Of a stretch of DNA of 44,874 nt, positions 1-10,336 are shown piece by piece. This DNA is from Hyphomonadaceae bacterium (GTDB lineage: Bacteria > Pseudomonadota > Alphaproteobacteria > Caulobacterales > Aquidulcibacteraceae). The translations under genes and the position numbers were made by a program. Below the pieces are notes generated by a model. It did not search any database and had not been told where the DNA came from. It was given only the letters and a program-made list of their open reading frames with translations. The DNA is taken from NCBI GenBank assembly GCA_014378995.1, contig JACMMP010000144.1:1-44874 (forward strand), written 5' to 3'. The number at the start of each line of letters is the position of its first letter. Positions within the stretch are counted from its first letter, which is position 1.

Positions 1-467
1 AGGTCACCTCGAAGATCGACTCGCGCACCATCCTCGGCGAGCAAGGCGCAGAACAACTCCTCGGCATGGGCGACTTGTTGTTCATGGCCGGCGGCGGCCG
101 CATCCGGCGCCTGCACGGACCCTTCGTCACCGACGGCGAAGTCGAACGCGTCGTCGCCATGCTGAAAGAGCAAGGCGCGCCGCAATATCGCACCGACGTC
201 ACCCAAGAGCCGAACGAGAACGCCGGCGAAGACGACAATCCCGAATTGTTCGACGCCGACGGCGAAGGCGGCGACCTGTTGGATCGCGCCATCGAGATTG
301 TCCGCCGCGACCGCAAAGCGAGCACCAGCTACCTGCAGCGCCGCCTAAGCATCGGCTACAACCGCGCCGCCACGCTGATCGAGAAGATGGAAAAGGCCGG
401 GATTATCTCGGAGGCGAACGCTGCCGGGAAACGGGATATTTTGGTTGATGTGGTGGACGAGGATTAG
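1..467 (+). CDS. ftsK: DNA translocase FtsK, C-terminal end (partial)
   Basis: Only the last ~155 codons are present; the frame is open from base 3 and the gene begins upstream of the window. The product is the hexameric division-septum DNA pump that moves chromosome termini apart and activates XerCD. What is visible is the end of the motor domain (SKIDSRTILGEQGAEQLLG, then GDLLFM and the HGPFV segment), an acidic linker, and the winged-helix gamma domain at the C-terminus (DLLDRAIEIV...SYLQRRLSIGYNRAATLIEKME) that reads KOPS sequences in characterised FtsK. The match to the family is unambiguous. A hairpin directly follows the stop codon. In many alphaproteobacteria lolA follows ftsK closely; here about 6 kb of other genes intervenes. 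Confidence 0.97.
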   Translation, partial: VTSKIDSRTILGEQGAEQLLGMGDLLFMAGGGRIRRLHGPFVTDGEVERVVAMLKEQGAPQYRTDVTQEPNENAGEDDNPELFDADGEGGDLLDRAIEIVRRDRKASTSYLQRRLSIGYNRAATLIEKMEKAGIISEANAAGKRDILVDVVDED

Positions 468-500
468 GGGCTAGCGCGATCTAGAGCAGCGCTGCGCCCC
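467..500 (+). terminator. Hairpin after ftsK
   Basis: GGGGCTAGCGC (467-477) can pair with GCGCTGCGCCCC (489-500) with one bulged base and an 11-nt loop, starting on the last base of the ftsK stop codon. There is no T-run after it, so it is a weak or factor-assisted terminator candidate. It also marks the left edge of the inserted defence genes. Confidence 0.45.
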
Positions 501-577
501 ACGGCATTCCGTTAGCGTCACCACGCAAGGAATCGGATAGGCTGGCCTCGACCGTTTTATAACGCGCGAGGCATCCC

Positions 578-1909
578 TTGGAGTCCACCCACAATCCCGA
601 TCGATTTATGTCGGACTTGAGATTCGTATTGTCTCAGGGCCGCAAGCGCATTGGGCTATTGGTGGGGGCTGGCGCGCCGGTATCGATCTTGGTCGACAAG
701 AACAATCGTTTGTCCTCGACTGGCGCTCCACTGATCCCGAACGTCGACGCACTCACTATTCAAGTGCTGGACACGCTCACTGGAGCCAATGCGAAAGCCG
801 CAGACGCACTCTACAAGGAATTGGGCAAAGAAACGAACATTGAGTCGATACTCTCTCGAGTTCGCCTGCTTGAGCGCGCGATCGGTTCAACACCAGTGCA
901 CGGGTTAGATTCAGGCGGCTATGCCGCCCTTGCTCAAGCCATCTGCGCGGCGATCGGGAAGATCGTCGGCCCTTCCTTGCCCACCGAGCGCAATTCATAC
1001 CACGAACTCATCGCCTGGGTCAGTGGGACCATGAGGAACCACGCGATTGAGATTTTCACGACAAACTACGACCTGCTCTTCGAAGAAGCGTTTGAGCGCG
1101 CACGCGCTCCGTACTTCGACGGATTTACTGGCGGCAAGTCACCGTTCTTCGATCCCGTTACAGTGGCGGGCAACGATCTGCCATCCCGCTGGTCACGACT
1201 CTGGAAGCTTCACGGCAGCCTCGGCTGGACACTCGATGGCAATTCGATCGTTCGAAGCGGCGGGCGCAACGCCAACGAACTCGTGTATCCTGACTATCTT
1301 AAGTACGATCAAACACAGCGTCAGCCGTACGCGGCGCTATTCGAGCGCCTAAAAACTTTTCTCCTTACTCCCGACACGCTGCTGCTTTCGATCGGCTTCT
1401 CTTTTCGAGATGCACACGTATCCGCGATACTGGACGAAGCGCTGGCGATGAACTCGAACACCGCAGTTATAGCATTCCAGTATCAGAATCTTGCAGCTGA
1501 AGAGAGCGCATGCCGCCTAGCGTTGGATCGCCCTAACATAAGCGTCTACGCTGCTGACGGCGCTGTGATCAGCGGTGTCGCCGGAAAATGGCTGCCAGGA
1601 GAGCTGCCGAAGAACTGGGCGGAAATCCGTTCTAGTTTCTGGAATTTGCGAGCACCAGATAAACCAGCGTGTTTCATCTTGGGCGACTTTCAGAAATTTG
1701 CTAGGTTTTGCGCACTAGCCCAAGCCACTGACCTCGCCTACTCGCCACCAAATTCTTCAGTCTCCGTGGAGCCTGAGCCGCACAGCGAGTCTGCTTCGGG
1801 CATGGAGACGCCGGCATCCACGCCAGACTTAAGCGTGGCGGTGAGCACGCCGACCGAGCCGACAGCAGCCAACGATGGGACTGATCTGCACGCACCGGAG
1901 GCGCGATAG
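578..1909 (+). CDS. sir2: SIR2-family NADase subunit of a SIR2-HerA anti-phage system
   Basis: 443 residues with a SIR2-like Rossmann domain: glycine-rich GAGAP near residues 30-34, FTTNYD at 160-165 (Asn163), LWKLHGSLGW with His212, and GFSFRD near the domain end. The Asn/His pair is what SIR2 defence NADases use to hydrolyse NAD+. The last ~50 residues are a Pro/Ser/Thr/Glu-rich tail of low complexity. The start is taken as TTG 578 because GAGG (568-571) sits six bases upstream; ATG 608 has no well-placed ribosome site. The stop codon overlaps the herA start by one base, so the pair is translationally coupled. Base composition is lower in GC and codon use looser than in flanking genes, consistent with transfer. 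In known SIR2-HerA systems the two proteins form a large complex that depletes NAD+ on infection; that role here is inferred from the pairing. Confidence 0.88.
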   Translation: MESTHNPDRFMSDLRFVLSQGRKRIGLLVGAGAPVSILVDKNNRLSSTGAPLIPNVDALTIQVLDTLTGANAKAADALYKELGKETNIESILSRVRLLERAIGSTPVHGLDSGGYAALAQAICAAIGKIVGPSLPTERNSYHELIAWVSGTMRNHAIEIFTTNYDLLFEEAFERARAPYFDGFTGGKSPFFDPVTVAGNDLPSRWSRLWKLHGSLGWTLDGNSIVRSGGRNANELVYPDYLKYDQTQRQPYAALFERLKTFLLTPDTLLLSIGFSFRDAHVSAILDEALAMNSNTAVIAFQYQNLAAEESACRLALDRPNISVYAADGAVISGVAGKWLPGELPKNWAEIRSSFWNLRAPDKPACFILGDFQKFARFCALAQATDLAYSPPNSSVSVEPEPHSESASGMETPASTPDLSVAVSTPTEPTAANDGTDLHAPEAR

Positions 1910-3741
1910 TGTCCACCACATCAAACGATCCCGCTTTGTTGGGCGAAATTAGTGCGGTGGCTGGTTCGAGCGTCACGGTGAAGCTGGCGCAATCAATTGC
2001 GTCTGGCGTCGCAATAATCCGAGGACACACTTATCGTGTTGGGCAAGTCGGAAGCTTCGTGCGCGTACCGCAGGGATATCAAGATCTGTTCGGCATCGTC
2101 GCAGAAGTAGGTGCGAGCGCCGCCCCAAACACTGCGGACCCTGGAGCAATTGACCCAGGACGGTGGATGCGCATCGAACTGGTTGGCGAAGCAATCGGTG
2201 GGAGATTCGAACGGGGGCTCAGTCAACACCCGAATATTGGGGACCACGTCTTTTTGGTCGTCGAGTCGGACTTAGTCCGCATCTATGGACAAGGAAGTGA
2301 CGATCAGATCGCGATCGGATCGCTTTCTAGCGCTGAAAACATAACCGTTCGCGTGTCGCTGGACTACTTACTGACCCGGCACAGCGCGGTGTTAGGATCG
2401 ACAGGTTCAGGCAAATCAACGACCGTGGCATCGCTGCTCCGCTCAATCGTTAAGCCTGAGTCTGGGCCGGGCCTTAAGGGCGCGCGAGTTTTGCTTCTGG
2501 ATCTCCACGGCGAGTACTCGCATGCGCTTGCCGATGTAGCTCGAGTATTCAGCGCAACCCCACAGCCCGGCGAAGAACAACTTCACGTGCCGTTCTGGGC
2601 GCTAGAAGCAGGTGAACTTCTGGCCTTCCTTACCGGAGACTTGAATGACAATCAGGAGATCGCTTTCACGGACAAAATTCTGGAGCTAAAATCCCAGCGG
2701 ATAGCAGCATCCCCACTCCCAGGGCTCCATGCGCAATCAATCACCATAGACAGTCCCGTACCGTTCAGCCTCGCACGTCTTTGGTATGATCTCACAGATT
2801 TTGAACTGATGACCTTCGAGGGGCCACAACGCGATATTCCTGCCCTAATACAAAAGGGCGCTGCTTCAACGCTAACCGCCCCGAAATATAAGCCTCACGC
2901 GATGGGAGCCGCGGGACCATTTCTCAACAATGCCGCGAAAGGTGTTCGGCGTCAGCTGAATCTGCTTCGCTCGAGGTTGCTGGATCGACGCTTCGATTTT
3001 GTACTGCATCCCGGCCCCTGGGAGCCCGACGAAAATGGCGTTGCCTCGGCCGATCTCGATTTGTTGCTCGAAAAGTGGCTTGGGCACGACAAACCCATCA
3101 CCATACTCGACTTGTCGGGAGTGCCGAGCGCCGTCCTAGAGCGTTTGATCGCGTCCATCCTGCGAGTTGTTTACGAAGCGCTCTACTGGAGCCGTGAGAA
3201 AACCGAGGGCGGAATATTGCGCCCCCTATTGATAGTCATGGAAGAAGCCCATCGCTACTTGAACCCTGGGACAGGTAATGTGGCAGCGGAAATTGTAAAA
3301 CGCATTGCCAAGGAGGGCAGAAAATACGGCGTCGGCGCTATGGTAGTTTCGCAACGTCCTTCGGAAGTGGATGAGACGATCCTATCTCAATGCGGGACCG
3401 TCATTGCGCTTCGTCTGTCAAATCCGGCGGATCGCTCAAGAGTCAAAGGGACGATGCCTGACAGCCTCGGCGGATTGATGGACCTGTTGCCCGTTCTACG
3501 GACCGGCGAGGCGATAATTTCGGGTGAAGCCGCCCGATTGCCTGTTCGCTGTCGTGTGACGATGCCGGCCCATGAACACGCGCCGCGAAGCCAAGATCCC
3601 GATGTAACAAATGCGTGGAAGCAGCGACGTGTGGCCGAAGGTTACGATCGGATGGTCGCGGCTTGGCGCGCTCAGCGATCCACCGCCGTCGCCAATGAAG
3701 TCAGCATTGATCGGAGTCCGGTTCCAAAGGCCGAGCAATAG
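1909..3741 (+). CDS. herA: HerA-family hexameric ATPase/helicase, partner of SIR2
   Basis: 610 residues. An N-terminal beta-barrel HAS-like region (about 8-150) precedes the FtsK/HerA ATPase core: Walker A GSTGSGKS at 163-170, Walker B LLIVMEEAH at about 438-446, and the SQRPSEVDETILSQC segment typical of HerA after it. Start GTG 1909 lies in TAGTG, sharing one base with the sir2 stop. HerA proteins are hexameric DNA translocases; paired with SIR2 they form the defence complex described for SIR2-HerA. The gene uses many A/T-ending codons (tta, ata, aaa), and its local GC falls below 50% around 2640-2700, unlike the surrounding chromosome. The family assignment is firm and the defence role is inferred from context. 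Confidence 0.9.
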   Translation: MSTTSNDPALLGEISAVAGSSVTVKLAQSIASGVAIIRGHTYRVGQVGSFVRVPQGYQDLFGIVAEVGASAAPNTADPGAIDPGRWMRIELVGEAIGGRFERGLSQHPNIGDHVFLVVESDLVRIYGQGSDDQIAIGSLSSAENITVRVSLDYLLTRHSAVLGSTGSGKSTTVASLLRSIVKPESGPGLKGARVLLLDLHGEYSHALADVARVFSATPQPGEEQLHVPFWALEAGELLAFLTGDLNDNQEIAFTDKILELKSQRIAASPLPGLHAQSITIDSPVPFSLARLWYDLTDFELMTFEGPQRDIPALIQKGAASTLTAPKYKPHAMGAAGPFLNNAAKGVRRQLNLLRSRLLDRRFDFVLHPGPWEPDENGVASADLDLLLEKWLGHDKPITILDLSGVPSAVLERLIASILRVVYEALYWSREKTEGGILRPLLIVMEEAHRYLNPGTGNVAAEIVKRIAKEGRKYGVGAMVVSQRPSEVDETILSQCGTVIALRLSNPADRSRVKGTMPDSLGGLMDLLPVLRTGEAIISGEAARLPVRCRVTMPAHEHAPRSQDPDVTNAWKQRRVAEGYDRMVAAWRAQRSTAVANEVSIDRSPVPKAEQ

Positions 3742-3752
3742 GGGACGCAGAA

Positions 3753-3962
3753 GTGGATCGCCAATCCGTCGCATCAAGTAACATCGTCTCCGTAGGCTAC
3801 GATGAAGGGTCCGAAACCCTCGAGGTCGAGTTCGCCGGGGGGCAGGTCTATCAATATTACAACGTCGGAGCGGCGCTGTATGAACAGTTCAAGAGCGCGT
3901 CTTCCAAGGGCCAGTTTCTGAACGCGCACATTCGAAACAGTTATCCCTATTCGCGAGTGTAG
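3753..3962 (+). CDS. KTSC-domain small protein
   Basis: 69 residues, all of which match the KTSC fold pattern: SSNIVSVGYDEGSETLEVEF, then GGQVYQYYNV with the central YxY, and a C-terminal SSKGQFLNAHIR. KTSC domains occur alone or at the C-terminus of some lysyl-tRNA synthetases; a nucleic-acid role has been suggested but is unproven. The start is GTG 3753 with a purine-rich stretch (GGGGACGCAG) just upstream. It begins 11 bases after the herA stop, so it is probably co-transcribed with sir2-herA. Whether it is part of the defence operon or a passenger cannot be told from one sequence. Confidence 0.82.
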   Translation: MDRQSVASSNIVSVGYDEGSETLEVEFAGGQVYQYYNVGAALYEQFKSASSKGQFLNAHIRNSYPYSRV

Positions 3963-4060
3963 CAGCCTCTATCCCCCAACTTCCCGCCCCAAGTCCTTGA
4001 TTCCCCTCGCCCCAAATAAATCTATCCGCCCCCATCCCGGCGCCCGTATCATGCGCCGTC

Positions 4061-4717
4061 ATGTCCACCACCGAGCCCGCCCCCGCCCGCACTGCGCCCC
4101 TGGCGCTGTGGCGCGTCGCAGAAACGCTGCTGCGCACGCTGCACATGCTCTTCGGCGCGCCCGAGGACGTCGCGGCGCAGCACACGTTTACGGCCAAGGC
4201 GCACGCGACGCTCGCGTCGTGGCTGCGCTGCGCCGAGGCGATGCTGCGGCGGCTGTTGCTGATCGAAGCGGCGGCGCTGCCTAAGCCCGGCGCGCACACG
4301 CCGCCGCGTCCCGCGCGTCCACGCGAACGCAAGCTCATGTCGTTCGAAGCCGATCAGCCGGAAACCTGGCGCGTCAGTTTTCGCTGCTTCACATCGTCAC
4401 CCGCGCGCGGGGGACGCATCAGCGCGCAAAGCGCGATGACGATGGGGGCCGGCGATCGCTGCGCCTCCCCTGCAGGCGCAGGAGGAAGGAGATTTTGCTC
4501 CGCCTGGCCGTTGGCCGAGCGTTACGAGGCGCTGCTGCGCGTCTTCAACGATCCCACCGCTTACGCCCGCCGCCTCGCGCGCCGGCTCCACGCCGCGCCA
4601 CAGCTGTTGGCCCAAGCGCTACGGGCGCCGCCGGAAGCGGCTCACCGCGTCGATCTTTTCGATGAAAGCGGCGAGCGCGCGGAAAGCGCATGGGCGCTCC
4701 ATTTCAGCTCGGCGTAA
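4061..4717 (+). CDS. Uncharacterised protein with a palindrome-encoded low-complexity segment
   Basis: 218 residues, no signal peptide or membrane segment, rich in Ala and Arg. Two ordered-looking parts, an N-terminal helical region (about 10-75) and a C-terminal one (WPLAERYEALLRVFNDP..., about 147-200), are separated by a low-complexity stretch rich in Gly, Ser, Ala and Arg at about 110-145. The DNA of that stretch (about 4390-4500) is full of inverted repeats and looks inserted. I do not recognise a function. Composition and codon use of the two flanking parts suggest a genuine gene. ATG 4061 is chosen as the start without a strong ribosome site. Confidence 0.6.
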   Translation: MSTTEPAPARTAPLALWRVAETLLRTLHMLFGAPEDVAAQHTFTAKAHATLASWLRCAEAMLRRLLLIEAAALPKPGAHTPPRPARPRERKLMSFEADQPETWRVSFRCFTSSPARGGRISAQSAMTMGAGDRCASPAGAGGRRFCSAWPLAERYEALLRVFNDPTAYARRLARRLHAAPQLLAQALRAPPEAAHRVDLFDESGERAESAWALHFSSA

Positions 4718-4872
4718 GCGCGACCGCTCTCCGACAAGGAATTTCCCACAACGCCGCGAACCTCAAAGCGCGGCGCGCCTAAACGCGCCTCGTGCGCGGA
4801 TGGCCGAATTGTTTCGCGCCAAGGTGGCGTCTCTGTTACGGTCACCCCTTAAGGCCGTCGGGGGACGCCCTG

Positions 4873-5577
4873 GTGTTTGAATCAGTTGTGTTGGCCAGCG
4901 CCGCGTGCGCCGCCGCCTTGAAACAGGCCGGCGAGGCTGCGCCCAGCCCGCCGCCGCAATACCATGTCTCCGGCGAAATCGTGCTGGTCTCGGACTATCG
5001 CCGCGGCGGCGCCACGCAATCTGACGGCGATCCCGCCCTCCAAGGCCGCATCGACATCCGCCATGACTCGGGATGGAGCGTGGGCGCCTTCGCCTCCAGC
5101 ATGAACGGCCGGCGCGGTTCGAACGCGCAGGTCTCGCTGTTCGGCGCGCGCCGCTTCGAATTCGGCGAGGCTGATTTGAGCCTCGGCGCCAGCGCCGTGA
5201 TCTTCCTGGGCGGCGACGCCGATCCCTTCGTCATCGCCCAAGCCAGCGTCGCCCACCCGATCGGCCCGGTCGATGCGACGCTCGCGGTCAATTACGCGCC
5301 GCCGCAAGCATCGCTCGGCGGCGAGCACGGGCTTGGCGTCGGTTTGCGCGCACGCACGCCGCTTGGACGCGTTAACGGCGCGCCGCTGACCGCTGCGGCG
5401 AGCGTGGGCTGGTCGGAGGGCGATTTCGCCATGGGCGCGGGGACGAAGTTCGATTGGTCGCTAGGCGTCAGCGCCGAAATCGAGGGCGTCGAAATCGGTC
5501 TCGCTTATGTCGATAACGATCTGGATGACGAGCGCGGCGAAGCGGGCCTGGTGTTCTCCATCGCTCACCGTTTTTGA
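4873..5577 (+). CDS. TorF/TIGR02001-type putative outer-membrane beta-barrel protein
   Basis: About 234 residues from GTG 4873, which has GGGGGA (4860-4865) seven bases upstream; an in-frame start at 4792 is possible but gives an odd basic N-terminus. The pattern YHVSGEIVLVSDYRRGG followed by ATQSD, IDIRHDSGWSVGAFASS and alternating hydrophobic strands ending in IAHRF fits the TIGR02001 outer-membrane family, with an aromatic C-terminus as barrel proteins have. The segment VVLASAACAAA could be the core of a signal peptide, but the usual basic n-region is missing with this start, so export is inferred. It is followed at once by a possible lipoprotein gene. Confidence 0.68.
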   Translation: MFESVVLASAACAAALKQAGEAAPSPPPQYHVSGEIVLVSDYRRGGATQSDGDPALQGRIDIRHDSGWSVGAFASSMNGRRGSNAQVSLFGARRFEFGEADLSLGASAVIFLGGDADPFVIAQASVAHPIGPVDATLAVNYAPPQASLGGEHGLGVGLRARTPLGRVNGAPLTAAASVGWSEGDFAMGAGTKFDWSLGVSAEIEGVEIGLAYVDNDLDDERGEAGLVFSIAHRF

Positions 5578-5826: not shown

Positions 5827-6504
5827 CTACTCGATCTCCCAATCGATCTCGCCGCGCACGTCGTGCGGCACGGAATCGCACAGCGCCTTGTGCACTTGCT
5901 CCTGTGTTTTGTTGCGCGGCATGCGGAAGACGTAGTCGATGCGGCTTTTGCCGAATTGCTTGTTCTCGCTGATCAGCTTGCAATCCATGTCGGCAAGCAC
6001 GGCGCGGTAGGCGAGAGCGGCGTCCTTCAGGCGCCCCTTCGGAATTTCCTGCACTTCGAGCTCGCACACCGGGTGGCCGTCGAAGACGTAAACCAGAACC
6101 CACGCGAACGCCGTCGCCATCACTGCAAAGTGCGGCAGGTTGAGCCCCGCGATCAGCCCGATCAGCGTCACCATGATGAGGCGGCTGGTGTCGCGCGTGG
6201 AGGCGGCGTCGGTGCGGAAGCGCATCAGCCCGCCGAGGCCGAAAATCACAAAGCCGATCACCATGCCGTAGGCGAGCACGATCTCGCCAATCACCGCGCC
6301 GACCAGCGCGTACATGACCAGCACTTTCGGCAGCTCGGCCTCTTCGCGGGTGTCGACCGTGCGCGCCGTGGTGGGGTGAAACGCGACCACGCCGCCCAGG
6401 ACGATCGCCAGCACCAGCGCCAGGAACGCCTGCAGCAATTGTTCCCAGTCGAGGAAGCCAGCCCAGCCGATCGAGGGCAGCATTGTCATATCAGCGCCGA
6501 ACAT
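5827..6504 (-). CDS. Inner-membrane protein, DUF4956/MgtC-like
   Basis: 225 residues. Four or so hydrophobic segments fill the first ~145 residues (LLQAFLALVLAIVLGGVVAF; a pair around VMYALVGAVIGEIVLAYG and FVIFGLGGLMRF; then LIMVTLIGLIAGL and MATAFAWVLVYVF), followed by a cytoplasmic alpha/beta C-terminal domain of about 80 residues. The GLGGLMRFRTDA motif between segments recalls DUF4956 and, more distantly, MgtC proteins. No transport or regulatory role can be assigned. It is convergent with the small lipoprotein gene (4-base gap) and divergent from lolA. Confidence 0.65.
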   Translation of the reverse strand: MFGADMTMLPSIGWAGFLDWEQLLQAFLALVLAIVLGGVVAFHPTTARTVDTREEAELPKVLVMYALVGAVIGEIVLAYGMVIGFVIFGLGGLMRFRTDAASTRDTSRLIMVTLIGLIAGLNLPHFAVMATAFAWVLVYVFDGHPVCELEVQEIPKGRLKDAALAYRAVLADMDCKLISENKQFGKSRIDYVFRMPRNKTQEQVHKALCDSVPHDVRGEIDWEIE

Positions 6505-6659: not shown

Positions 6660-7316
6660 ATGAAGAAGTCCCTCGCCCTCGTCGCGCTGGCTGCGCTCGC
6701 ACTTTCCGCGCCCGCGATTGCGCAAAGCGCGCGTCCCGCAACCGTCGCCGCCGCCTCTTCCGCGCTGGTGACGCTGCAGGGCGCCGAACGCGCCCAGGCG
6801 CTGACGGCGATCAACGCCGAGCTCAATGCGGTCCAGCGCCTGCAGGGGCGCTTCGTGCAAACCTCGCCCGACGGCAGCCGCGCCGCCGGCGCCTTCTACA
6901 TGCAGCGCCCAGGGCGGCTGCGCTTCGAGTACGATTCCCCCGCCACCATGCTGATCGTCGCTGACGGCAGCGTTGTCGCGTTGCGCGACACGGCGCTGCG
7001 CACCACAGAACGCACCCCGCTGCGCTCTACGCCCTTGAGCCTCATCCTCGGCGAACGCATCGACCTGGAACGCAACGCCCGCATCATCCGCGTTTCCCGC
7101 GAAGGCCCTTGGACGCTCGTCACAGCGCGCGACCGCGCCGGACAGACGGACGGCGTTATCACGCTGCAATTCAACAATGGCGAACTGCGCTCGTGGGATG
7201 TGATCGATGCGACCGGCGCGCGCACGCGCATCACGCTCTCGAATCTGACCCGGCCAGCGAGCCTCGACCGCGGACTTTTCCGGCTTGAGGACGTGGTTTC
7301 CCCGCGGCGCAGATAG
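6660..7316 (+). CDS. lolA: Outer-membrane lipoprotein carrier protein LolA
   Basis: 218 residues with a clear Sec signal peptide (MKKSLALVALAALALSAPAIAQ). The mature part carries LolA signatures: LQGRFVQTSPDG, then GAFYMQRPGRLRFEYDSP, then LIVADG, and a C-terminal LRSWDVIDATG. LolA ferries lipoproteins across the periplasm from LolCDE to the outer membrane. ATG 6651 is an in-frame alternative start; 6660 gives the more typical signal peptide. The gene is divergent from the membrane-protein gene and lies upstream of xthA, the usual alphaproteobacterial neighbour. Confidence 0.93.
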   Translation: MKKSLALVALAALALSAPAIAQSARPATVAAASSALVTLQGAERAQALTAINAELNAVQRLQGRFVQTSPDGSRAAGAFYMQRPGRLRFEYDSPATMLIVADGSVVALRDTALRTTERTPLRSTPLSLILGERIDLERNARIIRVSREGPWTLVTARDRAGQTDGVITLQFNNGELRSWDVIDATGARTRITLSNLTRPASLDRGLFRLEDVVSPRRR

Positions 7317-7372
7317 GCGGAGCGCCGTATCCCAACCTTTCTGCATTGCAAGCACTTTCGCCAACGCTGAAC

Positions 7373-7401
7373 TTGAAAAACTTTGGCTTGTGGCGTATAT
7401 G
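7373..7401 (+). promoter_or_regulatory. Strong sigma-70-type promoter
   Basis: TTGAAA (7373-7378), a 17-base spacer, then TATATG (7396-7401). This is the best housekeeping promoter match noticed in the window. The predicted start, about 7408, coincides with the first base of a small hairpin (AGCGG at 7408-7412 paired with CCGCT at 7416-7420). Confidence 0.68.
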
Positions 7402-7407
7402 CAACGT

Positions 7408-7560
7408 AGCGGTCGCCGCTCATCCCCCTGGATGGCGTCGTCCCCCCCGCTGACGGATCCAGCGCGGCGCCCGCTTATGCCGGACAATCCCCTGCCGGCG
7501 AATATGCGCCTCCCTCAGGCGCTCAGAGGCCCGGCTGCTGAATGCGGCCGGGTCTCTTTG
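7408..7560 (+). ncRNA. Candidate small RNA with C-rich hairpin loops
   Basis: This non-coding interval of about 150 bases starts at a strong promoter and ends in a terminator. It folds into consecutive hairpins: 7408-7412/7416-7420; 7428-7433 + 7436-7439 with 7452-7455 + 7457-7462, loop containing seven C; 7479-7483/7495-7499, loop ACAATCCCCTG; 7506-7510/7518-7522, loop TCCCTCA; then the terminator stem 7526-7535/7547-7556. C-rich single-stranded loops that can pair with Shine-Dalgarno sequences are a hallmark of several alphaproteobacterial regulatory RNAs (for example CcsR and GsrN types), but I do not recognise this one. It could instead be a long xthA leader if the terminator leaks. Confidence 0.6.
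7526..7560 (+). terminator. Intrinsic terminator before xthA
   Basis: GAGGCCCGGC (7526-7535) pairs with GCCGGGTCTC (7547-7556), ten base pairs including one G-T pair, with an 11-base loop. It is followed by a short TTTG. It ends the candidate small RNA and perhaps lolA read-through. Confidence 0.65.
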
Positions 7561-7607
7561 CATGCGGAGCGCGTGCATTCCGCCGCCGCCCAGGCCATGA
7601 ACCGCCA

Positions 7608-8399
7608 ATGCTGAAAATTGCGACTTGGAACATCAACTCCGTACGGCTGCGCATCAACACGGTGTGCCGCTTCCTCGCCGAAGCAAAACCGGACGTGTTG
7701 TGCCTACAGGAAATCAAATGTCGCGACGGCGAGTTTCCGGCCAAGGCGTTCAAGGAAGCCGGCTACAAGCACATGCATGTCGTGGGCCAAAAGGGCTGGC
7801 ACGGCGTCGCCATTGTTTCACGCGTGAAGCTGGAGCCGGTGGAAGCGCCGGCGATCTGCGCGAAGAAGGAAGCGCGCATCGCCGCGGCGTTAATCGACGG
7901 CGTCGAGGTGCACAATCTCTATGTGCCCGCGGGCGCCGATTTGCCGGAACTAAGCAACCCAAAGTTCGCGCACAAACTCAGCGTGCTGGATCAAATGAAA
8001 GCGCTCTACAAAAAGCGTAAAGGCAAAACACCAACGGTTCTGGTCGGCGATCTCAACGTGGCCCCCGGTGAATTCGACGTCTGGAGCCACCGCCAACTCC
8101 TCAAAGTCGTGAGCCACACGCCAGGCGAGACCGAGCGGCTGAACGCCGTGCGCGATCTCGGCGGCTTCGTCGATCTGGCGCGCCAGCACAAACCCGATCC
8201 GGAAAAGCTGTTCACATGGTGGAGCTATCGCAGCCCCGACTGGACCAAGAACAATCGCGGCCGCCGCCTCGATCACATCTGGGCCACTAGCGACATCGCT
8301 GTGACCTCACGCGCCGAAGCGTTCCACATCCACATGCCCTGCCGATCGTGGGAACGCCCCAGCGATCATGTGCCGGTGGTCGCCGGGCTGAAGCTCTGA
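7608..8399 (+). CDS. xthA: Exodeoxyribonuclease III / AP endonuclease
   Basis: 263 residues, the usual ExoIII length. Catalytic landmarks of the EEP fold are present: N-terminal ATWNINS, CLQEIK with metal-binding Glu35, GDLNVAP with Asp148 and Asn150, RRLDHIWA, and C-terminal PSDHVPV with the Asp253-His254 pair. The enzyme cuts abasic sites in base-excision repair. Start ATG 7608 directly yields the canonical MLKIATWN beginning. It lies about 50 bases after the terminator of the putative small RNA. Confidence 0.96.
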   Translation: MLKIATWNINSVRLRINTVCRFLAEAKPDVLCLQEIKCRDGEFPAKAFKEAGYKHMHVVGQKGWHGVAIVSRVKLEPVEAPAICAKKEARIAAALIDGVEVHNLYVPAGADLPELSNPKFAHKLSVLDQMKALYKKRKGKTPTVLVGDLNVAPGEFDVWSHRQLLKVVSHTPGETERLNAVRDLGGFVDLARQHKPDPEKLFTWWSYRSPDWTKNNRGRRLDHIWATSDIAVTSRAEAFHIHMPCRSWERPSDHVPVVAGLKL

Positions 8400-8476
8400 G
8401 GCTTTCGTCGCAAGCGGCATTGAGACACGAGCGCGCGACGCTAAGGTGGGCGCTAAAATCAAATTGGGGGATCGAT

Positions 8477-10336
8477 ATGCAGCTTTCACGACGCGCTCTT
8501 CTCGGCGCTGGCGCGGCCAGTGTTGCTGTGCTTTCCGGTTGTGCTACCGGCGCGAGTGACGCGACGGCGCCGGCTGCGACGCAAAGCCCGAGCGAACAGC
8601 TTACCGCCACGCTCGATCGCACCGTCGCCGCCATCCTGCGCGAGTCGCCGGAACGCTGCACCGCGCTCGGTCTCACGGAAGCGCGCGCCGGCTATCGCTT
8701 CGTCGATAAATTGAGCGACGCCTCGAAAGACGGCGCGCGGCGTTATCGCGGCATCATCCAGAACGCACTGACGGAGCTGCGCGCCATCGACCGCAGCGCA
8801 CTGCCGACGAACGAAGCGGTGACGCTCGATGTCGTCACCACGTCCTACGACTACAATCTCGCCAACTCGCGCTTTGAAGTGGGCAGCGGCGCAGGTGCGC
8901 CGTACGTGGTGACGCAACTCACCGGTTCGTACGGCAACTTCCCCGATTTCATGGATGCGCAACACCCGCTGCGCACGCGCGATGAGGCGGACGCTTATCT
9001 CGCGCGCCTCGGCGAATACGTGCGCGTGCTCGATCAGGAAACCGCGACCATCCGCGAGGACGCCGCCGGCGGAATTGTCCCGCCAGACTTCGCCATCGAT
9101 CGCGCGCTTGAGCAGATGAGCGCATTCACCTCGACTGCGCCGGCACAGACCGTGCTGGTGGAATCCTTGGTGCGCCGCCTGCCGAGCGTGGCCGAAATTT
9201 CGGAGAGCGAACGCGCCGGCTATTTAACGCGTGCGGAATCCGCTGTGCGCGACGCAATCTTGCCGGCTTATGAGCGCCAGAAAGCGGCGCTCGGCGAAAT
9301 CCGCCGCAACGCGGTGCACGATGCGGGAATCTGGCGTTTGCCGCGCGGCGCGGAGATGTATGCCGCCTCGCTGCAAAGCCGCACCACGACGACTATGTCG
9401 CCGGACGAAATCCACTACATGGGCGTTGAGCTTATTCGCGGCTTCCACAGCGAGATGAACACGATCCTGCGCGCGCAGGGCCTCACCCGCGGCAGCGTCG
9501 CGCAGCGTGTGCAGCAGCTCTCGCGCCGGCCGGATCAGCTTTACCCGAACACCGACGCCGGCCGCGCGCAGATCCTCGCTGACCTCAACACGCAGACTCG
9601 CCACATCGAATCGCTGATGCCGCAAGCCTTCAACACGTTGGCGCAGGCGCAGCTGGAAATCCGCCGTGTGCCGGTGACGACCGAAGCCGGCGCGCCGGGC
9701 GGCTATTATCAGCGCGCCGCGCTCGATGGCTCGCGCCCCGGCGCCTATTACATCAACCTGCGCAACACCGCCGAATGGCCGAAATTCACGCTGCCGACGT
9801 TGAATTATCACGAGGGCGTGCCGGGTCATCACTGGCAGATCTCGATCCAACAAGAATCTGGCTCGATCCCCTTCATCCGCAGCGCCATGCTGGGCTTTTC
9901 CGCTTTCAGCGAGGGTTGGGGGCTTTACGCGGAGCAGCTCGCCGACGAACTCGGCGTCTATGCCAACAATCCGCTTGGTCGCCTCGGCTATCTCCAATCG
10001 ATGACGTTCCGCGCCTCGCGCTTGGTCGTTGACACCGGCATGCACCACAAACGCTGGAGCCGCGAACAGGCGATCGCCTCCATGATGGAAGCCACCGGCG
10101 ATCAGGAAAGCTCGATCACCACCGAGATCGAGCGCTACGCGGTGTGGCCGGGCCAAGCCTGCAGCTACATGGTCGGTCGCCAGGCCATCAACCGCATGCG
10201 CGACGCTTCGCGCGCGGCGCTAGGCAGCCGCTTCGATCTGAAGGGCTTCCACGACACCATGCTGGCCAACGGTGCGGTGCCGCTCTCGGTGCTGGAGCGG
10301 ATAATGACCGATTGGACAACCTCGCAACGCGCTTAG
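8477..10336 (+). CDS. DUF885-family lipoprotein (putative metallopeptidase)
   Basis: 619 residues. The N-terminus MQLSRRALLGAGAASVAVLSGC combines a twin-arginine motif (SRRALL) with a lipobox (LSGC), so it is probably a Tat-exported lipoprotein. The body belongs to DUF885: the hallmark HEGVPGHHWQ at 445-454 is a zinc-peptidase-like HExxxGH arrangement, and FSEGWGLYAEQLADE follows. DUF885 proteins are secreted and thought to be zinc metallopeptidases; substrates are unknown. Start ATG 8477 has GGGGG (8466-8470) six bases upstream. It appears to be a single-gene unit. Confidence 0.92.
   Translation: MQLSRRALLGAGAASVAVLSGCATGASDATAPAATQSPSEQLTATLDRTVAAILRESPERCTALGLTEARAGYRFVDKLSDASKDGARRYRGIIQNALTELRAIDRSALPTNEAVTLDVVTTSYDYNLANSRFEVGSGAGAPYVVTQLTGSYGNFPDFMDAQHPLRTRDEADAYLARLGEYVRVLDQETATIREDAAGGIVPPDFAIDRALEQMSAFTSTAPAQTVLVESLVRRLPSVAEISESERAGYLTRAESAVRDAILPAYERQKAALGEIRRNAVHDAGIWRLPRGAEMYAASLQSRTTTTMSPDEIHYMGVELIRGFHSEMNTILRAQGLTRGSVAQRVQQLSRRPDQLYPNTDAGRAQILADLNTQTRHIESLMPQAFNTLAQAQLEIRRVPVTTEAGAPGGYYQRAALDGSRPGAYYINLRNTAEWPKFTLPTLNYHEGVPGHHWQISIQQESGSIPFIRSAMLGFSAFSEGWGLYAEQLADELGVYANNPLGRLGYLQSMTFRASRLVVDTGMHHKRWSREQAIASMMEATGDQESSITTEIERYAVWPGQACSYMVGRQAINRMRDASRAALGSRFDLKGFHDTMLANGAVPLSVLERIMTDWTTSQRA

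Follow-up and report, generated by a model that had tools for sequence, protein, structure and literature searches.

The stretch of DNA analysed here, referred to as the window, comprises 44,874 nucleotides (nts) of a Hyphomonadaceae bacterium (contig JACMMP010000144.1). A 291-nt gap within it separates lolA (ending at 7316) from xthA (starting at 7608), and holds a structured element on the same strand as both flanking genes (Table 1). The lolA assignment is anchored by a Pfam match, while its match to TIGR00547 (E 8.8e-22) falls under the cut-off of that model. Other genes seen around the element include a DUF885 gene and a PEP carboxykinase gene. Elsewhere in the window, positions 1909–3741 encode a HerA-like ATPase, whose top NCBIfam match, HerA_antiphage_2 (E 2.7e-72), lies under the curated cut-off.

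Table 1. Genes and predicted RNA features of the lolA–xthA locus, in window coordinates
Feature	Position	Strand	Basis or detail
lolA, outer-membrane lipoprotein carrier, upstream gene	6660..7316	+	Pfam PF03548, E 8.5e-31, above cut-off
Upstream promoter box, GCAAG (7348-7352) and CTTGA (7372-7376) overlapping the -35; candidate regulator site, possibly for NtrX	7348..7376	+	Motif counts
Putative promoter, TTGAAA-17-TATATG, with GTGGC directly 5′ of the -10	7373..7401	+	Pattern match
RusT-type small RNA, predicted extent	7408..7559	+	Fold z -4.73; covariance models R1 (6.7e-34) and R2 (2.9e-29), both built with the window sequence included
Hairpin 1 (H1)	7410..7473	+	Predicted outer stem 7410-7419/7464-7473, middle 7428-7432/7458-7462, inner 7437-7440/7451-7454
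Hairpin 2 (H2), AUCCCCU in the loop, corresponding to the RusT seed	7479..7499	+	Predicted stem 7479-7483/7495-7499
Hairpin 3 (H3), loop with UCCCUC	7506..7522	+	Predicted stem 7506-7509/7519-7522
Rho-independent terminator, short U run	7526..7559	+	Predicted stem 7526-7538/7544-7556
xthA, exodeoxyribonuclease III, downstream gene	7608..8399	+	TIGR00633 and TIGR00195, above cut-off

An initial annotation had placed a promoter, consecutive hairpins whose loops are rich in C, and a GC-rich terminator in 7373–7560, and all of these are found there. The −35 (TTGAAA, 7373–7378) and −10 (TATATG, 7396–7401) hexamers are separated by exactly 17 nts, and the pair at a spacing of 16–18 occurs once in the window, compared with a mean of 0.00 in 100 shuffles. 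The box overlapping the −35 recurs as CAAG-N15..21-TTGA upstream of 29 of 40 own-family loci (shuffled mean 0.5) and of 8/14 loci from the other families of the order (shuffled mean 0.1), and of none of nine loci in other orders (shuffled mean 0.2); loci L019 and L025 are omitted from this count. The box is conserved within the order.

The predicted fold of 7400–7560 has an energy of −82.8 kcal/mol (z −4.73), and none of 200 shuffles was as stable. It comprises four stem-loops, the last being the Rho-independent terminator, which is trailed by a short U run, TCTCTTTG. H1 has an internal loop (7420–7427) that carries AUCCCC and an apical loop that reads UCCCCCCCGC (7441–7450). The C-rich loops of the initial annotation are thus recovered, though their number is not: three were claimed, and four C tracts are counted. 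These are five Cs from 7424, made up of part of the H1 internal loop and the first stem base; seven Cs from 7442 in the H1 apical loop, the sole plus-strand run of at least six in the window; and two smaller tracts, TCCCCT in H2 and TCCCT in H3. C-richness by itself is unusual and not unique, since CCCC runs are as numerous in 29 of the 4472 segments of 160 nts scanned over both strands. The real evidence for the element is its conservation.

Conservation and Covariation of the Element

When 61 genomes were searched at the DNA level, 33 gave a match at E ≤ 0.01, in some cases over short stretches only. Within the genus, the element is present in 26 of 29 further genomes (27/30 counting the own genome). 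The three misses (G021, G026, and G028) also lack a LolA match, so the locus is probably absent from those assemblies. A LolA match accompanies all 30 loci returned by the DNA search.

Compensatory change, which the initial annotation had named as a check, is abundant in two alignments. In the genus-centred MAFFT alignment A2 (29 sequences, excluding L025, which is cut by a contig end), whose structure was derived by RNAalifold from A2 itself, 20 of the 41 pairs are altered at both partners. Such changes fill 54 cells against 9.1 in shuffles, with none of 500 shuffles as high, and 95.9% of cells are paired against 30–44% when partners are slid by 1–3 columns. They fall on 10 of the 13 terminator pairs and 7 of the 10 outer-stem pairs of H1, and on 0/9 of the middle and inner H1 pairs, stems which hardly vary within this set. 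In A4, an alignment of 56 diverse members fitted to the structure of model R1, and itself the source of model R2, 38/41 pairs change on both sides, among them all 19 pairs of H1 and 13/13 of the terminator, and 99.6% of H2 cells are paired. Near-duplicates were excluded from A4, as were L019, L025, L090, L093, L094, and L095. A further alignment, A5, covaries as well, though it is fitted to the model.

The H1 loop of six or seven Cs is almost invariant while its stem covaries: a run of at least six Cs followed by GC occurs in 52 of the 56 A4 members, the exceptions being L061, L062, L066, and L076. The H2 motif TCCCCT is present in 50/56. Taken together, the fold, promoter and covariation support the annotated structured, apparently independently promoted noncoding RNA of ~150 nts, and the element very probably encodes a small regulatory RNA.

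Probable Kinship with RusT of Caulobacter

A small RNA is already known from the corresponding gap of Caulobacter crescentus, which takes the word “new” away from the initial annotation. There, RusT (CCNA_R0199) is a 118-nt sRNA encoded between lolA (CCNA_03820) and xth (CCNA_03821), and folds into four stem-loops, of which the conserved second contains the seed (nts 45–57, with C53). Its promoter is occupied by NtrX, which seemingly represses it, and the RNA is induced by iron chelation or zinc. RusT binds and needs Hfq, which contacts stem-loop 3, and together with Hfq represses TonB-dependent receptors, OmpW, and others. Its sequence varies little among close relatives of C. crescentus, and the accessible part of the source reports it from Caulobacteraceae only (PMC11005374). 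A literature search of largely open-access papers found no description of the family outside Caulobacteraceae. What is new here, as read from sequence, is a probable RusT ortholog in which a further hairpin also presents a C-loop, and a family far wider than we found reported.

Kinship with C. crescentus RusT was judged through Caulobacteraceae-type loci and the published coordinates. Three loci of one further family, L061, L062, and L066, are flanked by lolA and xthA. No Caulobacteraceae-type sequence went into model R1, and its match listed for each of these genomes falls in the gap, at 1.0e-5 in L061, 1.4e-5 in L062, and 1.4e-3 in L066. If the RNA starts at base 5 of the match in L061 and base 4 in L062, then the U run closes the 118 nts, and nt 53 falls on a C of AUCCCCU; in their predicted folds, stem-loop 3 occupies nts 72–87, fitting the published RusT map. 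L066 likewise fits C53 and the 118-nt end; a separate stem-loop 3 is absent from its folds. Because the published coordinates fit, we infer that all three are Caulobacteraceae-type RusT. Six R1 matches were fetched in that family, and three lie elsewhere (2.6e-5 to 8.8e-4, with L064 at 2.6e-5), so that the R1 score alone is not decisive; position and the H2 motif carry the case. The H2 seed reads AUCCCCUGCCGGC in the window and UAUCCCCUCCCGGCGG in the Caulobacteraceae-type loci that fit the published coordinates.

RusT and the window RNA are alike in their lolA–xth gap, in a plan of four stem-loops including a terminator, and in a C-rich seed in the second hairpin; the promoter layout is also common to the window RNA and the Caulobacteraceae-type loci. 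Their kinship is apparent, at the level of sequence comparison, in the conserved structure, the synteny, and the H2 seed hairpin common to the Caulobacteraceae-type loci. Three differences stand beside these. First, the window RNA is ~150 nts long against the 118 nts of RusT. Since the paper states the 118-nt length and low variation for close relatives of C. crescentus, both are read as a trait of that clade, not of the whole family. Second, H1 carries the C7 loop at its apex and AUCCCC in its internal loop, and this C-loop hairpin is without counterpart in L061, L062, or L066, which limits the likeness to H2, the overall plan, the terminator, and the position. Third, H3 is a GC-rich stem unlike the Hfq-contacted stem-loop 3 of RusT, so that the Hfq binding of RusT is not transferable to the window RNA. 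On balance, we regard it as likely, with good confidence, that the window RNA is orthologous to RusT, a trans-acting sRNA, and carries an extra C-loop hairpin at its 5′ end. That hairpin is probably ancestral.

Placed between lolA and xthA on their strand and ending ~50 nts 5′ of xthA, the element could instead act in cis, as a leader or attenuator of xthA, or be just the 3′ end of the lolA transcript. This is improbable given that promoter box and terminator are both conserved. In L012 and L022, moreover, xthA lies further off with the RNA still beside lolA, and a number of other members have no recognised xthA or no recognised lolA alongside. RusT itself is a separate 118-nt transcript in C. 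crescentus (PMC11005374).

Less probable still is that the RNA belongs to another C-rich alphaproteobacterial family, such as GsrN, αR8/SisA–D, or CcsR, and merely sits at lolA. Sigma-T-type promoters carry the motif GGAAC-N14..19-CGTT. Its single match in the window falls inside lolA, with none at the sRNA promoter. GsrN resembles the window RNA in having six tandem Cs in a 5′ loop, modelled to pair with G-rich mRNA sites, and differs from it in sigma-T control, in its locus, typically near ecfG/nepR/phyR (C. crescentus itself excepted), and in pairing with the katG leader to activate katG (PMC5869019). The initial annotation's comparison with CcsR and GsrN is one of manner only: GsrN does have the six tandem Cs, but its sigma-T control finds no match at this promoter. 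The SisA–D/αR8 RNAs (including MmgR) resemble RusT-type RNAs in using an anti-Shine–Dalgarno seed and in having been found with Hfq, but their seed is the 10-mer UUUCCUCCCU, a single-stranded core, and they come from another locus, most often beside an FGase gene (PMC12559287). That core has no match at ≤2 mismatches in 7373–7560. The Rfam search that had been suggested for the element gave no match at the gathering score, either for the window or for any of 12 related loci; at E up to 10, the region 7200–7700 had three weak matches, to MIR1846 (0.24), sR46 (1.4), and the Brucella sRNA CI414 (6.4). The lolA–xth position and H2 point to RusT.

ChvR, a first candidate for this locus, was rejected, as it is an 84-nt RNA at recF. 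As is proposed for the window RNA, this sRNA has two pairing sites and a TonB-dependent receptor mRNA as target; in C. crescentus it is Hfq-independent, and in the accessible part of the source its authors did not find it beyond C. crescentus (PMC6237742).

Open frames do span the region (e.g., 7285..7614 on the plus strand), yet a small protein gene is hardly credible, since the number of Cs in the run varies (6, 7, or 8) within the one genus and single bases are gained or lost elsewhere, so that every frame is shifted and none is kept, and substitutions track base pairing.

Spread Across the Order and Class

Of the 249 genomes of the order, 134, spread over 32 of 48 genera, have a match to model R1, and 115 have none. 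Twenty order-level matches, picked by hand, were fetched, and 17 have lolA and/or xthA in the locus. L063, L064, and L065, all from one family, have neither and are probably false matches; since 3/20 fetched matches are thus probably false, 134/249 sets a ceiling on true members at that threshold. Conversely, the lolA locus was read in four genomes of the order that R1 did not match: L090 has a C7-GC loop, L094 and L095 have an H2-like motif, and L093 has neither. In the class, R1 matched 26/385 genomes at E ≤ 0.001, and 7 of the 9 new loci read have lolA and/or xthA; R2 matched 62/385, a count that takes in weaker, provisional matches. L083 and L089, which have no recognised lolA or xthA nearby, may be relocated copies, or have diverged neighbours or short flanks.

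A pattern scan covered named records. Both the C6 loop and the H2 seed form part of the search pattern and are therefore present by construction in its 80 loci listed, of 119 stretches. Among these 80, R2 matches 71 and misses 9. None of the nine listed misses has lolA or xthA near, and their titles include Streptomyces, Arthrobacter, Clostridia, Balneolaceae, and one Magnetococcales. Among the 71 listed matches, lolA lies ≤200 nts upstream on the same strand in 41 and 200–5000 nts away in 9, and xthA is within 2 kb in 44; at least one of these placements is found in 59 and none in 12, some of which have short flanks. These 12 (L123, L130, L133, L145, L153, L166, L182, L190, L195, L196, L197, and L198) could, in the same manner as L083 and L089, be relocated copies, or have diverged neighbours or short flanks. 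Hosts among the matches listed include Maricaulis, Hyphomonas, Ponticaulis, Parvularcula, Marinicaulis, Aestuariivirga, and Taklimakanibacter, with Parvibaculum at lower scores. A strong copy of the RNA (133 bits), together with lolA and xthA, also occurs at 3471–3640 of L140, on a contig titled Hydrogenophilaceae bacterium, which is perhaps mislabelled or mis-binned alphaproteobacterial DNA.

With a family spanning Maricaulis, Hyphomonas, Parvularcula, Parvibaculum, and Aestuariivirga, what was a single Caulobacter RNA becomes open to wide comparison as a regulator, and a covariance model is now at hand for annotating the RusT family, so far without an Rfam match. One broader reading is that RusT derives, by trimming, from an ancient alphaproteobacterial sRNA that was linked to lolA and had two anti-Shine–Dalgarno seeds. 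The C6–7 loop of H1 would be the second seed, setting a broader, GsrN-like regulon, and Caulobacteraceae would have lost the H1 seed and kept only that of H2. We hold the chances of this history to be evenly balanced. The breadth of the family makes two questions testable: whether the C6–7 loop serves as a second seed, and whether NtrX control of this promoter goes back as far as the RNA itself.

Proposed Mechanism and Candidate Targets

For the window RNA, we infer transcription, Hfq binding, NtrX control, targets, and a stress response of the following form. The RNA would be transcribed from its own sigma-70-type promoter, under the upstream regulator box, perhaps read by NtrX, and would end at its own terminator and bind Hfq. 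Its exposed C-loops (AUCCCCU in H2, and the C7 loop and AUCCCC internal loop in H1) would then base-pair at G-rich ribosome-binding sites on mRNAs for envelope proteins, including TonB-dependent receptors, and reduce translation of these mRNAs under disturbed iron or envelope homeostasis. Such pairing is likely by analogy with RusT and the six-C loop of GsrN.

As to the regulator, NtrX is perhaps the natural candidate reader of the promoter box, because it binds PrusT in C. crescentus. L061, L062, and L066 are among the eight other-family loci that carry the box, as can be read in their printed sequences. The reported NtrX motifs are CAAN2-5TTG and GCAN9TGC (PMC9223101), and the window box, GCAAG-N19-CTTG, matches neither. 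The own genome encodes Hfq and NtrY, and an AAA-lid/Fis-HTH fragment compatible with NtrX lies 5′ of hfq. A scan of the hfq and ntrY loci for CAAG...CTTG-like boxes yielded nothing telling.

The initial annotation had the RNA hitting several mRNAs at G-rich ribosome sites, which is plausible from RusT and GsrN; specificity did not emerge from the target tests. The own genome has 14 receptor matches, of which 13 starts were used, L120 being a fragment without a start. When duplex energies of the four C segments were computed against these 13 starts (chosen by eye) and 48 controls (placed automatically), receptor starts paired better than controls (one-sided p 0.000 to 0.009). Reversed C segments did nearly as well (p 0.000 to 0.019), so the receptor preference is mostly G-richness. 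GGGG occurs upstream of 6/13 receptors and 5/48 controls. Among genus orthologues, two receptor sets have GGGG in −30..−1 at 16/16 and 10/10 starts (26/26), L258, the 17th locus of the first set, having yielded no start. Control genes, for each of which 27 genus loci were tried with starts placed automatically, fall into two groups: GGGG is found in the same interval at 18/18 starts of the DUF885 gene and 14/16 of the gene at 5827–6504 (32/34 together), and at 0/25 each of lolA and xthA (0/50). Neither the own-genome duplexes nor the orthologue starts thus show specificity over general G-richness of ribosome sites.

Some genes of the genus have conserved GGGG(G) tracts in place of AGGAG, mostly starting at −9 to −14. 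G-tract sites are not rare in the genus. With its several C-loops, such an RNA could affect a large number of mRNAs. Within the window, the DUF885 ribosome site at 8464–8479, UUGGGGGAUCGAUAUG, is complementary to AUCCCCC at 7422–7428 in H1; it is possibly a nearby target, or may simply reflect the local Shine–Dalgarno style.
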